DNA of 64,000 nucleotides from Parvibaculum sp. (lineage in GTDB: Bacteria > Pseudomonadota > Alphaproteobacteria > Parvibaculales > Parvibaculaceae), in NCBI GenBank assembly GCA_030645235.1, contig JAUSMV010000008.1:248001-312000 (forward strand), given 5' to 3'. The notes beneath the pieces are model-generated. The model saw only the letters and a program-made list of their open reading frames with translations, had not been told where the DNA came from and ran no database searches. The position numbers and the translations under genes were made by a program. The stretch's first letter is position 1; the number at the start of each line of letters is the position of its first letter. This document shows, piece by piece, positions 53,744-58,360 of this stretch.

Positions 53744-54751
53744 CTGAGCCCTAAACCCAAAACCGGCAAAGCCGCTGCCAAGTCCAAAACAGCCGCCAAG
53801 CCCAAAGCCAAATCAGCCCCCGCGAAATCTGCAAAGCCCGCTGCGAAGTCGAAGCCTGTTGCGAAGTCGAAGCCTGCTGCGAAAGCAAAGCCCGCTCCTT
53901 CCAAAGCAAAGCCAGCCGCGAAAGCAAAGCCCGCCGCCAGAGCTGCAAAGCCGGTGGCCAGGAAGCCGGTTGCCGGAAAGAAACCTGCGCCTGCTAAAAA
54001 GCCCGTTGCTGCTAAAAAGCCCGTTGCTGCGAAAAAGCCCGTTGCTGCTAAAAAGCCTGTGGCGACAAAGAAGCCTGCGCCCGCTAAATCCGCACCGAAG
54101 AAATCAGCACCGGTCAAGGCATCAGCAAGGCCCGCGGCTAAACCCGTTGCCAAGCCCAAAGGCAAAGCCGCGCCCAAGCCGGTCGCAAAAACAAAGCCTG
54201 CTGCGAAAGGCAAACCCGCGCCGAAATCCAAGTCTGCGCCGAAAGCCGCTGCAAAGCCTGCGGCCAAGCCGACATCAAAGCCCAAAGCCAGCAAGCCGAA
54301 AGCGGCACCCGCGCCTGTCGTCGCCGCACCGGCAGTCCCCGAGCTTCCCGCCGCCGTTATTGCCCGCCAGAAAGCCGACGCCGAAGCCCATGCCGCTTCC
54401 GTGAAGCACGTGCAGGCGATGCTGACCCTCATCATGTCGAGCCTTGATGATGACAAGGCCGAGGATGTGGTCGCGATCAATCTCGCAGGCAAGACGCCGA
54501 TGGCCGATTACATGGTCGTCGCCTCGGGCCGCTCGACCCGTCACGTCAGCTCGATTGCCGACCATGTGATGCGCCGTCTCAAGGATGAAGGCTTCGGCCT
54601 TGCCCGTGTTGAAGGCATGACGCAGGGTGACTGGGTGCTGATTGATGCGGGCGACATTGTCGTCCATGTCTTCCGCCCCGAAGTGCGCGAATTCTATCGC
54701 CTCGAAAAAATGTGGGCGGCGGATATTCCCGAAGACAGCATCAGCGCGTAA
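53744..54751 (+). CDS. rsfS: Ribosome silencing factor RsfS with long Lys/Ala/Pro-rich N-terminal extension
   Basis: The C-terminal 120 residues are a normal RsfS (VKHVQAMLTLIMSSLDDDKA; INLAGKTPMADYMVVASGRS; TQGDWVLIDAGDIVVHVFRP), which blocks subunit joining by binding L14. Upstream the same frame continues with about 215 residues of AKPAAK/KKPVAA-type repeats back to 53732, where a stop precedes. No ATG occurs in this stretch. CTG at 53744, 8 bp after AAGGA, is taken as start and gives 335 residues. GTG at 53954 would give 265. The ATG at 53736 is out of frame and stops after three codons. The extension resembles histone H1-like basic tails. Confidence 0.75.
   Translation: MSPKPKTGKAAAKSKTAAKPKAKSAPAKSAKPAAKSKPVAKSKPAAKAKPAPSKAKPAAKAKPAARAAKPVARKPVAGKKPAPAKKPVAAKKPVAAKKPVAAKKPVATKKPAPAKSAPKKSAPVKASARPAAKPVAKPKGKAAPKPVAKTKPAAKGKPAPKSKSAPKAAAKPAAKPTSKPKASKPKAAPAPVVAAPAVPELPAAVIARQKADAEAHAASVKHVQAMLTLIMSSLDDDKAEDVVAINLAGKTPMADYMVVASGRSTRHVSSIADHVMRRLKDEGFGLARVEGMTQGDWVLIDAGDIVVHVFRPEVREFYRLEKMWAADIPEDSISA
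53993..54064. repeat. Four tandem 18-bp repeats encoding KKPVAA
   Basis: Units start GCTAAAAAGCCCGTTGCT at 53993, 54011, 54029 (one change) and 54047 (several changes), inside the RsfS extension. The repeats are in frame, so unit gain or loss would change the length of the basic tail without disrupting the protein. Confidence 0.85.
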
Positions 54752-54775: not shown

Positions 54776-55258
54776 ATGCGAATTGACATTTGCGCCGTCG
54801 GGCGGTGGCGGGCAGGACCTGAAAAGACCCTGACCGACGACTACCTGACGCGCGCGGGTGCCGCCGGTCGCGGCATCGGCCTCACGAGTTTCAAACTCAC
54901 CGAAGTCGAAGAAAAGCGCAGCCTGACGGGCGACGCATTAAAAACCGCCGAAGCCGCACTCCTCAAAGGTGTGATCGCGCGCGGGAGCCGCATTGTCATG
55001 CTGGACGAGCGCGGCACGCTTGAAGGCTCTGTCGCCTTCGCCAAACGCATCTCGACGTGGCGCGACGCGGGCACACAGGATCTCGCCTTTGTCATTGGTG
55101 GCGCCGACGGGTTGGACGCTACGTTTCGCAAGCAAGCCGATCACCTCATGGCTTTCGGCCCGATGACCTGGCCGCATATGCTGGTGCGTGTTCTTCTGTC
55201 GGAACAAATCTACCGTGCCGTTTCGATCATCACCGGCCACCCGTATCATCGGGTCTGA
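54776..55258 (+). CDS. rlmH: 23S rRNA pseudouridine-1915 N3-methyltransferase RlmH
   Basis: SPOUT-class SAM methyltransferase modifying helix 69 of 23S rRNA; 160 residues. It begins [20 protein letters not shown], with trefoil-knot motifs VIGGADGLD and [20 protein letters not shown], and ends YHRV, as the family requires. It follows rsfS by 24 bp, the usual order. Confidence 0.97.
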
Positions 55259-55452: not shown

Positions 55453-57051
55453 ATGAGCGGCAAGATCGGCGTCAAACCCCTGGTCCTGGTTCTTCTGGAC
55501 GGATGGGGCATCCGCGCTGAGCATGAGGCAAATGCCCTCGCTCAGGCGCGCACACCTGTCTATGACCGGCTCGCGGGCACCTATCCGCATACGGTTTTGC
55601 AGGCTGCGGGCGCATCTGTGGGTCTGACGCCCGACAAGCCCGGCAATGTGCAGGCAGGCTATATGACGATGGGCGCAGGCGCGCCGGTCGAGCAGAACCT
55701 CATCCGCGTCAACCGCGCGTTGCAGGATGACGGCCCGCGTGGCCTTGCCCACAATCCCATCCTGCAAAAGCTCATTCAGCGTGTGCGCCCGCTCGGCGGC
55801 GCGGTGCATCTGATCGGCATGGTCTCGCCCGGCGGCATTGCCGGTCATCAGAACCATCTGGCTGTTCTGGCCGCGCGCCTGAGCCATGAAGGCGTGCAGG
55901 TCTATATTCACGGCATTATGGATGGTCTCGACGTTGCGCCCCAAAGCGGCATTATTTGTCTGGGCGAGCTGATCGACGATGTGGCCGGTGCCGAGCATGT
56001 GCACCTTGCCAGTGTTATGGGCCGCGCCCTCACCATTGACGAGACGGCAGACGCTGCAAGCCTTAAATCAGCCTGGAAGGCCATAGCCGACGCCAATGCA
56101 CCGCGTACGGAATATCTTTCGACGCATCTTGACCAGGCTTACGGCAAAGGCCTGAACGACGACCGTATCCCGCCCGCCATCTCGCAGAAATATCGCGGCA
56201 TCCGTCGCGATGATGCTGTGTTCCTTGTCAATCTGCGCCCCGATCTCGGCGCACAGATGATGCAGGACCTGATCGAATCTGAAACCGGCGCAATGCTCTC
56301 AAGCATCACCTCGCTGGTGCAGCTTGAAGGTGCGGGGCTTGATTGGGTCGAGCCGCTGTTTCCCCGCGTCACAAGCCATATGACATTTTCCGAAACACTG
56401 GCACGCGCCGGTCAGAGCCAATTGCTGCTCACCGAAACCATGGCGGAAAAAAACCTCTCGCTGTTCTGGCGCGGCGGTCAGAACCGCATTTTTGATAATG
56501 AGACTTTGGCGCTGGCTGAAACCCCGCTCAACAAACTCGAAAAGCGGCCTGATCTGTCAGCGGCTGATCTCACCATCGAAGCGATGAACACGATCAAAAC
56601 CAATGACCGTGATTTCCTCCTCATCAATTTCGCCAATGTCGGTCTCATCGGCCGCACCGGCAATATGCGCGCGACCATTGAGGCGGCTGAAGCCATCGAC
56701 AAATATCTCGGCAAGATTGCAGCGCAGGTTGAAAAGCGCGGCCTTACTATGGCCATCACCAGCGCCTATGGTCGCGGTGAAATGATGATCAATCCCGATA
56801 CCGGCAAAATCTGGCGCGGCCCCACAAGCTCCAACATGCCCTTCACGCTTGTGGCACCGGGCCTGAACAAGGCACCGCACGGCACCTTGCGCTTTGGCAC
56901 TGTGGCTGATGTCGCGCCGACGCTGCTTTCACTGATGGGCATTGAAGTGCCGGCCGGTATGACAGGCCGCTCGCTTCTCGTCAGCGACGGGGACGGACCG
57001 CAGGCGGAGCCCGTTTCTCAAACAAGCAGTGTCAACAGTGTTCCGGCCTGA
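55453..57051 (+). CDS. Degenerate GpmI-family protein (probable phosphoglycerate mutase pseudoenzyme)
   Basis: 532 residues covering the whole cofactor-independent phosphoglycerate mutase fold without a frameshift, in the locus normally held by gpmI. The start VLVLLDGWGI and several scaffold motifs remain, but active-site residues do not. The nucleophile motif GNSEVGH reads GNVQAGY (65-71, Ser to Val). The metal pair PDMVGHTG reads VGLIGRTG (D, H lost). The ADHGN pair reads SAYGRG (D, H lost). The H of AHTxN reads TSSN. SDGGVHSH reads SPGGIAGH, and DGRD reads DGLD. Catalysis by the known mechanism is therefore unlikely. envC overlaps its end by 23 bp, suggesting a structural or regulatory role at the envelope. 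Confidence 0.88.
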   Translation: MSGKIGVKPLVLVLLDGWGIRAEHEANALAQARTPVYDRLAGTYPHTVLQAAGASVGLTPDKPGNVQAGYMTMGAGAPVEQNLIRVNRALQDDGPRGLAHNPILQKLIQRVRPLGGAVHLIGMVSPGGIAGHQNHLAVLAARLSHEGVQVYIHGIMDGLDVAPQSGIICLGELIDDVAGAEHVHLASVMGRALTIDETADAASLKSAWKAIADANAPRTEYLSTHLDQAYGKGLNDDRIPPAISQKYRGIRRDDAVFLVNLRPDLGAQMMQDLIESETGAMLSSITSLVQLEGAGLDWVEPLFPRVTSHMTFSETLARAGQSQLLLTETMAEKNLSLFWRGGQNRIFDNETLALAETPLNKLEKRPDLSAADLTIEAMNTIKTNDRDFLLINFANVGLIGRTGNMRATIEAAEAIDKYLGKIAAQVEKRGLTMAITSAYGRGEMMINPDTGKIWRGPTSSNMPFTLVAPGLNKAPHGTLRFGTVADVAPTLLSLMGIEVPAGMTGRSLLVSDGDGPQAEPVSQTSSVNSVPA

Positions 57052-58360
57052 TCCGCGTTTGCCGCTGATGCTGCTGGCCTTGCTCGCACCGGCCCCTGAT
57101 GCCCGCGCCGAAGTCACCGACCCGTCAAAGCTCGAAAGCCTCAAGCAAGAGGTGGACACGAGCCTTGAGCGCAAAAAAGAGCTGGAAGCCAAAGCGAGCA
57201 AAGTCGCCGAAGACGTCGCCGCCACACGCGCCAAGCTGATTGCAACGGCGGCCAAAGTGCAAAAGAGCGAAGCCGAAGTCTCGGCCTCCGAAGTGCGCCT
57301 GAACGAACTGAAAGCCAGCGAAGCCGAACTTCTCATCCGCCTCGAAGCGCGGCGCGCCCGCCTCTCGTCGCTTTTGGGGGCGCTGGCGCGGCTCGACGCC
57401 AACCCGCCGCCGGCGCTCGCCGTCGAACCCGATGATGCTTTGGGCGCGGTGCGCGGCGCGATCCTGCTTGGTGAAGCCGTGCCCGAACTCAAAGCCGAAG
57501 CGGCAGCCCTCAAGGCCCGCCTGATCCAGTTGCAGTCGCTGCGCGCGGCCATTCTCGCCGAACGCACCACGCTCAGTCAGGCCACCGCCTCGCTGGAGCG
57601 TGACAAAACGGCGCTTGAAAGCCTGCTCAATACCAAACTCGCGACGCAAAAAAAGCTCACGGCCGCCGCAACATCTGCCGAGACACGGGCAAAAGCTCTG
57701 GCGCAGGAAGCCACCGACCTCAATGATTTGATCGCGAAGCTCGAAAACAAAGCCTCAAGCCGCCTGCCCCAACAAAGGCCCGACCCGCAGGCCCCCAAAC
57801 CCAAACCACCTGTTGAGATCGCCGAAAAGCCTGCCGAAAGACCGACCGAGCTTGCCATGCTCTCGCCGCCGTCCGAACCGTCTGTCATGCCCTCCTCGCG
57901 CCTCTTTTCGCAGGCCAAAGGTCTCATCCGCCTGCCCGCGACGGGGCTTTTGCTCTCAGGTTTCGGCTCATCCAACGGTGAGGGCGGGCGCACCGAAGGC
58001 ATGACCATTGCGACGCGACCCGACGCCCAGGTCATCGCCCCCTTTGACGGCAAAGTGGCCTATGCCGGACCCTTCCGGCGTTATGGGCAACTTTTGATCC
58101 TGTCGGTCGGCGAGGGCTATCATGTGCTGCTGGCCGGGATGAGCGAAATTGATGCCTCTGTCGGCCAAACGGTGCTCGCAGGCGAGCCGTTGGGCCGTAT
58201 GGGAGGTACTTCTTCATCTTCCTCTGATGAAATTGCAGAAAGCCGCCAGAATATCGCGACAGATGGAAGACCCTCCCTTTATATTGAGTTTCGCAAAGAC
58301 AGCGACCCGATCGACCCCCGACCGTGGCTGAAGATGAGTGACACAAAGGCGCGTGGATAA
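57029..58360 (+). CDS. envC: Murein hydrolase activator EnvC family protein
   Basis: 443 residues from a GTG at 57029, overlapping the preceding gene by 23 bp. Signal sequence near 1-28 (LPLMLLALLAPAPDARA), then long coiled coil (about 30-240; LESLKQEVDTSLERKKELEA), a Pro-rich linker and a C-terminal LytM domain (GRTEGMTIATRPDAQVIAPF; GKVAYAGPFRRYGQLLILSV). The Zn-binding His residues of active LytM peptidases are missing, as in EnvC, which activates amidases at division sites. Acts in the periplasm. ctpA follows without a gap. Confidence 0.92.
   Translation: MSTVFRPDPRLPLMLLALLAPAPDARAEVTDPSKLESLKQEVDTSLERKKELEAKASKVAEDVAATRAKLIATAAKVQKSEAEVSASEVRLNELKASEAELLIRLEARRARLSSLLGALARLDANPPPALAVEPDDALGAVRGAILLGEAVPELKAEAAALKARLIQLQSLRAAILAERTTLSQATASLERDKTALESLLNTKLATQKKLTAAATSAETRAKALAQEATDLNDLIAKLENKASSRLPQQRPDPQAPKPKPPVEIAEKPAERPTELAMLSPPSEPSVMPSSRLFSQAKGLIRLPATGLLLSGFGSSNGEGGRTEGMTIATRPDAQVIAPFDGKVAYAGPFRRYGQLLILSVGEGYHVLLAGMSEIDASVGQTVLAGEPLGRMGGTSSSSSDEIAESRQNIATDGRPSLYIEFRKDSDPIDPRPWLKMSDTKARG

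Follow-up and report, generated by a model that had tools for sequence, protein, structure and literature searches.

A cofactor-independent phosphoglycerate mutase without most of its catalytic residues, retained in its ancestral place in Parvibaculaceae and a sister family

The cofactor-independent phosphoglycerate mutase (iPGM, also called GpmI or GpmM) is represented by the TIGR01307 model and by solved structures such as 1EJJ, 1O98 and 5VPU. A gene for a homologue of this enzyme lies in a 64,000-nucleotide stretch of a Parvibaculum sp. assembly (GCA_030645235.1, contig JAUSMV010000008.1; NCBI assigns the genus to Parvibaculaceae), hereafter the window, and its product differs from the canonical enzyme in that 11 of 15 catalytic or ligand-binding residues are gone, its score lies below the equivalog cut-off and new residues have become conserved. 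This pseudo-iPGM is a new pseudoenzyme family derived from a familiar enzyme, probably of single origin. Two described systems resemble it in part. The trypanosome AdoMetDC prozyme (PMC5201418) is likewise a dead homologue beside a working enzyme, but that prozyme is a dead paralogue acting as a regulator; here the dead member is itself the original orthologue, and GpmA, which does the work, is not homologous to it. In cyanobacteria, the pairing of iPGAM with PirC (sections of PMC12077085) has revealed that the interdomain cleft and surface of an iPGM can serve as a docking site for another protein; this is a functional analogy only, as iPGAM is active and PirC-inhibited, whereas the window protein lacks most of the catalytic residues. 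Foster et al. 2010 (PMC2964296) discuss Parvibaculum lavamentivorans among genomes with both the cofactor-dependent mutase (dPGM) and iPGM, its dPGM being short and devoid of the dimerization region, and the sections of that survey covered here do not mention that the catalytic site of its iPGM is missing. No report of an iPGM pseudoenzyme, nor of a phosphoglycerate mutase retained as a pseudoenzyme instead of being deleted, was found in the open-access literature (openly licensed PMC papers).

The open reading frame at 55453-57051 begins with ATG and has zero internal stops. TIGR01307 aligns with residues 8-509 of its product over model positions 1-504 of 504 (316.7 bits, 2.2e-94), short of the equivalog cut-off of 330.65 bits; solved iPGMs align across the same residues in phmmer, and the Pfam domains iPGM_N and Metalloenzyme are found at residues 98-278 and 8-498. 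The structure model (predicted local distance difference test, pLDDT, 92.4) has a fold predicted to be intact and best matches ligand-bound iPGMs. An earlier interpretation made from the letters alone (the sequence-only reading) had proposed a full-length GpmI homologue with an uninterrupted frame and a preserved fold, and reading frame, profile and predicted model agree with it. Given the full-length two-domain sequence and predicted fold of a bacterial-type iPGM, in the orthologous place rlmH-gpmI-envC-ctpA, the gene is by alignment a full-length orthologue of gpmI.

Catalytic and ligand residues were scored at 15 positions in the numbering of 1O99, comprising nine substrate contacts and six metal ligands of two sites (D12, D403, H407, D444, H445 and H462). 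The metal roles of D12, D403, H407, D444 and H445 come from structural work on the B. stearothermophilus enzyme. The substrate contacts S62, H123, R153, D154, R185, R191, R261, R264 and K336 are set out in a section of PMC3886921, and H462 is named as an Mn ligand in a section of PMC12077085. The window protein keeps 4 of the 15, D12, D154, R185 and R261. Of the nine substrate contacts three remain and six have changed (S62 to V, H123 to A, R153 to L, R191 to E, R264 to L and K336 to A), and five of the six metal ligands have been replaced (D403 by G, H407 by R, D444 by A, H445 by Y and H462 by P), so that D12 is the only one left. The replacement of the nucleophile Ser, claimed by the sequence-only reading, is confirmed, with Val in the window protein and Ser at position 62 in none of 28 family rows. 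Its claims that both metal clusters and the substrate motifs are replaced stand for these five ligands and six contacts, but fail for D12, which persists as D16 of a DGWG motif, and for D154, which is the kept Asp of its 'DGLD'. In the motif SPGGIAGH the His is indeed lost, while SPGG itself is no loss: the canonical iPGMs of alphaproteobacteria have SPGGVHSH or SPGGVHAH at this point.

Displacement of these residues to other positions is not borne out. In a 25-row alignment of degenerate sequences, no His of the phosphatase domain is conserved at >=90% and there is no conserved Ser around position 66. The conserved Asp residues of this domain, D16 (= D12), D38, D416 and D486, are conserved equally in canonical iPGMs, and therefore none of them is a new ligand. 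Conserved residues do not rebuild the alkaline-phosphatase-type two-metal site elsewhere, the catalytic residues are lost and not displaced, and mutase activity is presumably gone. The protein is thus a homologue without essential catalytic residues, as pseudoenzymes are defined, and what marks a functional GpmI, namely Ser62, two metal sites, nine substrate contacts and an equivalog score, is not found in it.

The degenerate form is common to the family. All 28 Parvibaculaceae rows aligned (L001, L002 and L013-L038) keep at most 7 of the 15 residues and have lost them at the same sites: S62, R153, R264 and K336 are gone in every row and H123 in 27, D154 and R185 are kept in every row and R261 in 10, and the position of H407 holds Arg in 25, Lys in 1 and His in 2. 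By comparison, nine canonical rows at class level (L039-L041 and L066-L071) keep 15 of 15. In a scan of named genomes whose degenerate members coincide in many cases with the 28-row set, the best 80 matches make up 78 loci, of which 25 are degenerate (2-7 of 15 kept), 53 keep all 15 and zero are intermediate; the copy with 2 (L086) is cut at its N-terminus, and whole degenerate copies keep 3-7. The 25 degenerate loci listed share 40-65% identity with the window protein, and the 53 canonical ones at most 36%. The number of residues kept falls from 6-7 in g3/g5-type copies to 4 in Tepidicaulis and 3-4 in whole copies from Parvibaculum, from which the erosion of catalytic residues appears to have gone on after the loss. 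The sister family f121 has a more eroded copy in the same genomic place in three genomes, with R153, D154 and R185 kept.

At order level, 37 of the 40 genomes searched give a match at or below E 0.001, and no match was found at this threshold in G027, G031 and G034. As read row by row, a gene or piece is present in 32 of the 40, in G010 and G015 as contig-end pieces alone, and G003, G005, G014, G021 and G023 have weak matches alone (<30 bits). Among the eight genomes without a convincing gene, completeness is 100% in G027, 91-92% in G003 and G014, and 68-88% in the other five. The source assembly itself (3.83 Mb, 86 contigs) holds a second degenerate copy, 76% identical to the first (L002, G000:C22:83122-84666), within a second rsfS-rlmH-pseudo-gpmI-envC block on a separate contig of 90.7 kb. 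With this copy and the 28 family rows degenerate at the same sites, chance or sequencing error is ruled out. Since L002 lies in a duplicate neighbourhood and the assembly is 3.31% contaminated, a true paralogue pair is less likely; the copy may have come from a contaminating related strain or from a genuine duplication.

The ratio of nonsynonymous to synonymous substitution rates (dN/dS), estimated crudely by NG86 in 15 pairs, is 0.028-0.256 for pseudo-gpmI in 14 pairs, the remaining one being saturated. In the same pairs it is 0.057-0.214 for envC, except for 0.90 over 181 codons in the pair L082/L083, which is taken as an artefact of a partial gene cut by a contig end, and 0.011-0.128, lower, for ctpA; the values of pseudo-gpmI are near those of envC and rlmH. 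Purifying selection retains pseudo-gpmI, and relaxed decay is unlike this pattern. Conservation has also been gained. Counting as newly conserved a column of >=95% in the degenerate set whose residue occurs in <=35% of canonical rows, 24 columns are found, 18 of them in the transferase domain, whereas the same test yields 4 in 17 canonical alphaproteobacterial rows and 0 in 26 other canonical rows, sets of similar mean identity (0.532 degenerate, 0.598 and 0.525, respectively). The residues H145, E146, E172, D176, K232, R251 and D253 do not vary across the 25-row alignment, and in canonical rows they are either rare or not the dominant residue. The transferase domain is more identical than the phosphatase domain in 53 of 300 degenerate pairs, against 3 of 903 canonical and 0 of 136 canonical alphaproteobacterial pairs; the gap in conservation between the domains has been narrowed, not reversed. 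Selection for another role, as the sequence-only reading supposed, agrees with dN/dS of 0.03-0.26 in 14 pairs, the predicted fold and the newly conserved residues, and retention by purifying selection together with gained conservation marks the protein as a maintained pseudoenzyme.

The window genome also encodes a 210-residue cofactor-dependent mutase, GpmA (L005:1489-2121), which scores 368.3 bits against the 316 of NF002339 and is flanked, by eye, by dapB-like and nth-like genes. A catalytic gpmI elsewhere in the assembly is ruled out, for there are two TIGR01307 matches only, both degenerate. Of 37 family genomes, 34 have a GpmA above the TIGR01258 cut-off and the other three are 71-84% complete; in this lineage GpmA presumably now carries the phosphoglycerate mutase reaction. 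In a class sample of 385 genomes, iPGM is over the cut-off in 261 and GpmA in 86; as read, the 86 comprise 2 with a canonical-scoring iPGM (G159, and G272 with 8% contamination), 8 with a degenerate gene or piece (five of the family, three of f121) and 76 without an iPGM-like gene, the weak matches of G063 and G195 being counted as none. In a table of PMC2964296, 3 of 89 alphaproteobacteria have both mutase forms, and the same paper describes both forms as common elsewhere, for instance in enterobacteria. Non-orthologous displacement is usually told as one enzyme gained and the other lost; here the displaced enzyme has been retained in place, apparently dead and strongly selected. There is also a risk of misannotation, since one degenerate copy (L092:4001-5581) reaches 330.9 bits, marginally over the TIGR01307 cut-off, and could be annotated automatically as a functional mutase; P. 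lavamentivorans is among the genomes discussed as having both forms in PMC2964296.

A branch of the gene tree supported at 100/99 has all degenerate rows and f121 on the same side. In a tree of the proA, nadD, rsfS, rlmH and ctpA proteins, f121 groups with Parvibaculaceae (100/100); the window's proteins served as anchors for its columns, so that relatives of the window may be favoured, and it left out L066, L067, L071, L112, L120 and two gammaproteobacteria, with L181 added. A tree of CtpA alone is poorly resolved, the very long canonical rows L066 and L067 standing beside f121 and Parvibaculaceae. A single loss before the split of Parvibaculaceae and f121, followed by deletion in the lineage of G027, would be the simplest account, and two separate losses are possible.

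The proposed model, which is somewhat favoured here, is that the pseudoenzyme has been kept as a non-catalytic protein that binds a partner or ligand in a GpmA-using lineage. An ordinary gpmI would have lost its mutase chemistry in place, most simply in one event in the ancestor shared by Parvibaculaceae and f121, and a short GpmA would now do the mutase work, while the two-domain body would be retained as a metal-free, non-catalytic protein. Constraint would have shifted from the metal and nucleophile site mainly to transferase residues 137-146, 172-180, 232 and 251-261, and also onto one phosphatase-domain helix, 417-429. The product would most likely be a soluble binding protein; by docking to a protein partner, or by sensing some small anionic ligand, it may adjust central carbon metabolism. 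The binding role is putative, and a regulatory role is plausible. The fuller version, in which a displaced glycolytic enzyme was converted once to a metal-free regulator or scaffold, bearing a new conserved interaction surface on the transferase domain, and was kept in two families for non-catalytic work, is put forward tentatively. With catalysis apparently removed, the lineage makes non-catalytic roles of iPGM directly testable, and may point to a second role in ordinary iPGMs.

Several observations weigh against this model. The f121 branch of the gene tree is very long (2.61) and the separation of the family rows from f121 has support of only 67/45, so that attraction is possible. The phosphatase domain of degenerate pairs is still more conserved on average (0.560 against 0.513), and the gained conservation could stem from structural repair after metal loss, not from a partner. 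The new constraint is only partly common with f121: in a narrower list of 19 columns, 8 are matched in two or three of its sequences (141, 172, 176, 253, 417 and 429 by all three, 144 and 145 by two). The gene is absent from the complete genome G027 and has no convincing copy in G003 or G014, and its absence from the former means that at least one lineage can do without its role. Likewise, the 76 GpmA-bearing genomes without an iPGM-like gene indicate that GpmA needs no such partner, and the suggested link to carbon metabolism has ancestry and co-occurrence with GpmA as its sole grounds.

Metabolite sensing is the main alternative within the idea of a binding protein, and a new enzyme activity is less likely. 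As a phosphometabolite sensor, the protein would bind an anionic metabolite in the old substrate cleft without metal and signal by domain closure. The family-wide D154 and R185, the R261 of some rows, the contacts kept in f121 and the likeness of the predicted model to ligand-bound iPGMs speak for it, and the Arg commonly found at the H407 position could replace the lost cation; with six of nine contacts lost in the window protein, S62, R153, R264, K336 and nearly always H123 gone from the family, and D154 and R185 perhaps structural, it seems unlikely. A neofunctionalised enzyme, catalysing another reaction at a metal-free active site newly arisen within the transferase domain, would account for the seven invariant residues, for the kept D160 (= D154) and R191 (= R185) of the same domain, and for the purifying selection. 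Active-site residues should be the most fixed, yet K232 is A, T or G in f121, H145 is Y in L056 and E146 is A in two of the three copies, and no catalytic motif is recognised; this explanation, too, is improbable.

The sequence-only reading had also suggested an envelope or division role through envC. The overlap of 23 bases between the stop and the GTG of envC at 57029, on which that suggestion drew, is real and would make co-translation of a factor acting with EnvC possible. In all 9 family loci examined the degenerate gene lies in the order rsfS-rlmH-gpmI-envC-ctpA, as do the three f121 genes and also the canonical genes of L066, L068 and L070; all five genes are inside the locus in canonical L096, L098-L101, L103-L105 and L108. 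In canonical L069 rlmH is ~4 kb off, L067 and L071 have gpmI-envC-ctpA with no rlmH in the available stretch, L109, L112, L120 and the gammaproteobacteria L116 and L118 have gpmI, envC and ctpA with no rlmH match, and L102 and L125 match gpmI alone. As the same order is found around catalytic iPGMs, the neighbourhood is largely inherited and envC gives no clue to a new role. In G027 (locus L181), moreover, rlmH (870-1349) adjoins envC (1447-2814) with no space for pseudo-gpmI, so the association with envC is not specific to the degenerate form; by eye, the window protein has no signal peptide, while the EnvC frame seems to have one. The suggested role is accordingly set aside as very unlikely.

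Hardly any more credence is due to a decaying relic, kept just for spacing or to couple its translation with that of envC: the progressive erosion from the g3/g5 type through Tepidicaulis to Parvibaculum and the absence from G027 would fit it, whereas the low dN/dS, full-length frames in two families, gained conserved columns and intact predicted fold do not. A mutase still active through displaced ligands, for which the kept D12, D154, R185 and R261 and the predicted fold could be cited, can practically be dismissed, given the missing conserved His and Ser and the presence of GpmA.

Table 1. Features of the pseudo-iPGM gene and its immediate neighbours (window positions; residue numbers are those of the window protein, with 1O99 equivalents where given)
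Feature	Position	Strand	Basis
Pseudo-iPGM (degenerate gpmI), 532 residues + stop	55453..57051	+	Open reading frame, profile and alignment matches
D16 (= D12, DGWG motif), sole metal ligand kept	55498..55500	+	Alignment; metal role from structural work
V66, position of nucleophile S62	55648..55650	+	Alignment
Transferase domain, residues ~80-311 (Pfam iPGM_N 98-278)	55690..56385	+	Borders approximate
A130, position of substrate contact H123	55840..55842	+	Alignment
Residues 137-146 (AVLAARLSHE); newly conserved A137, V138, A141, S144, H145, E146	55861..55890	+	Column conservation
L159, position of R153; adjoining D160 = kept D154	55927..55929	+	Alignment
Residues 172-180; newly conserved E172, D176 (in all three f121 copies too)	55966..55992	+	Column conservation
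E197, position of R191	56041..56043	+	Alignment
Residues 251-253 (RRD); newly conserved R251, D253 (f121 too)	56203..56211	+	Column conservation
L265, position of R264	56245..56247	+	Alignment
A331, position of K336	56443..56445	+	Alignment
G397..R401, metal ligands D403 and H407 lost	56641..56655	+	Alignment
Residues 417-429; newly conserved K417, A424, K428, R429	56701..56739	+	Column conservation
A438-Y439, position of metal ligands D444-H445	56764..56769	+	Alignment
P457, position of metal ligand H462	56821..56823	+	Alignment; Mn role from a section of PMC12077085
rlmH, ancestral upstream neighbour	54776..55258	+	Open reading frame list, synteny
envC-like gene, ancestral downstream neighbour, GTG at 57029, overlaps stop by 23 bases	57029..58360	+	Open reading frame, synteny

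Low-scoring iPGM matches of the class sample were followed up in 18 genomes, chosen by score and searched again, and 12 loci were compared; a choice by score could miss single-residue losses in high-scoring iPGMs. The 13 matches in these loci keep all catalytic sites covered, except for one R153C, and are mostly contig-edge fragments; f121, with 3 of the 18 genomes, is the degenerate exception. G063, G090 and G195 have short, weak iPGM matches, and in loci L057 and L058 of G195 neither the window's neighbour genes nor its pgmI were found at E 1e-5. The alphaproteobacterial genome G127 (G127:C43:6427-9413, L042) carries two adjoining iPGM-like genes of 387 and 370 bits, well below ordinary iPGMs, one of which keeps 15 of 15 sites and the second 14 of 15 (R153C).

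Upstream of rlmH, the window's rsfS (53954-54751, forward strand) has a Lys/Ala/Pro repeat extension of ~150 residues (KKPVAAKKPVA...) preceding its conserved core. A similar extension is seen by eye in L002, and the fraction of K, A and P upstream of the core is 0.56 in L072 and 0.60 in L073, compared with 0.21-0.37 in the other 18 loci examined.
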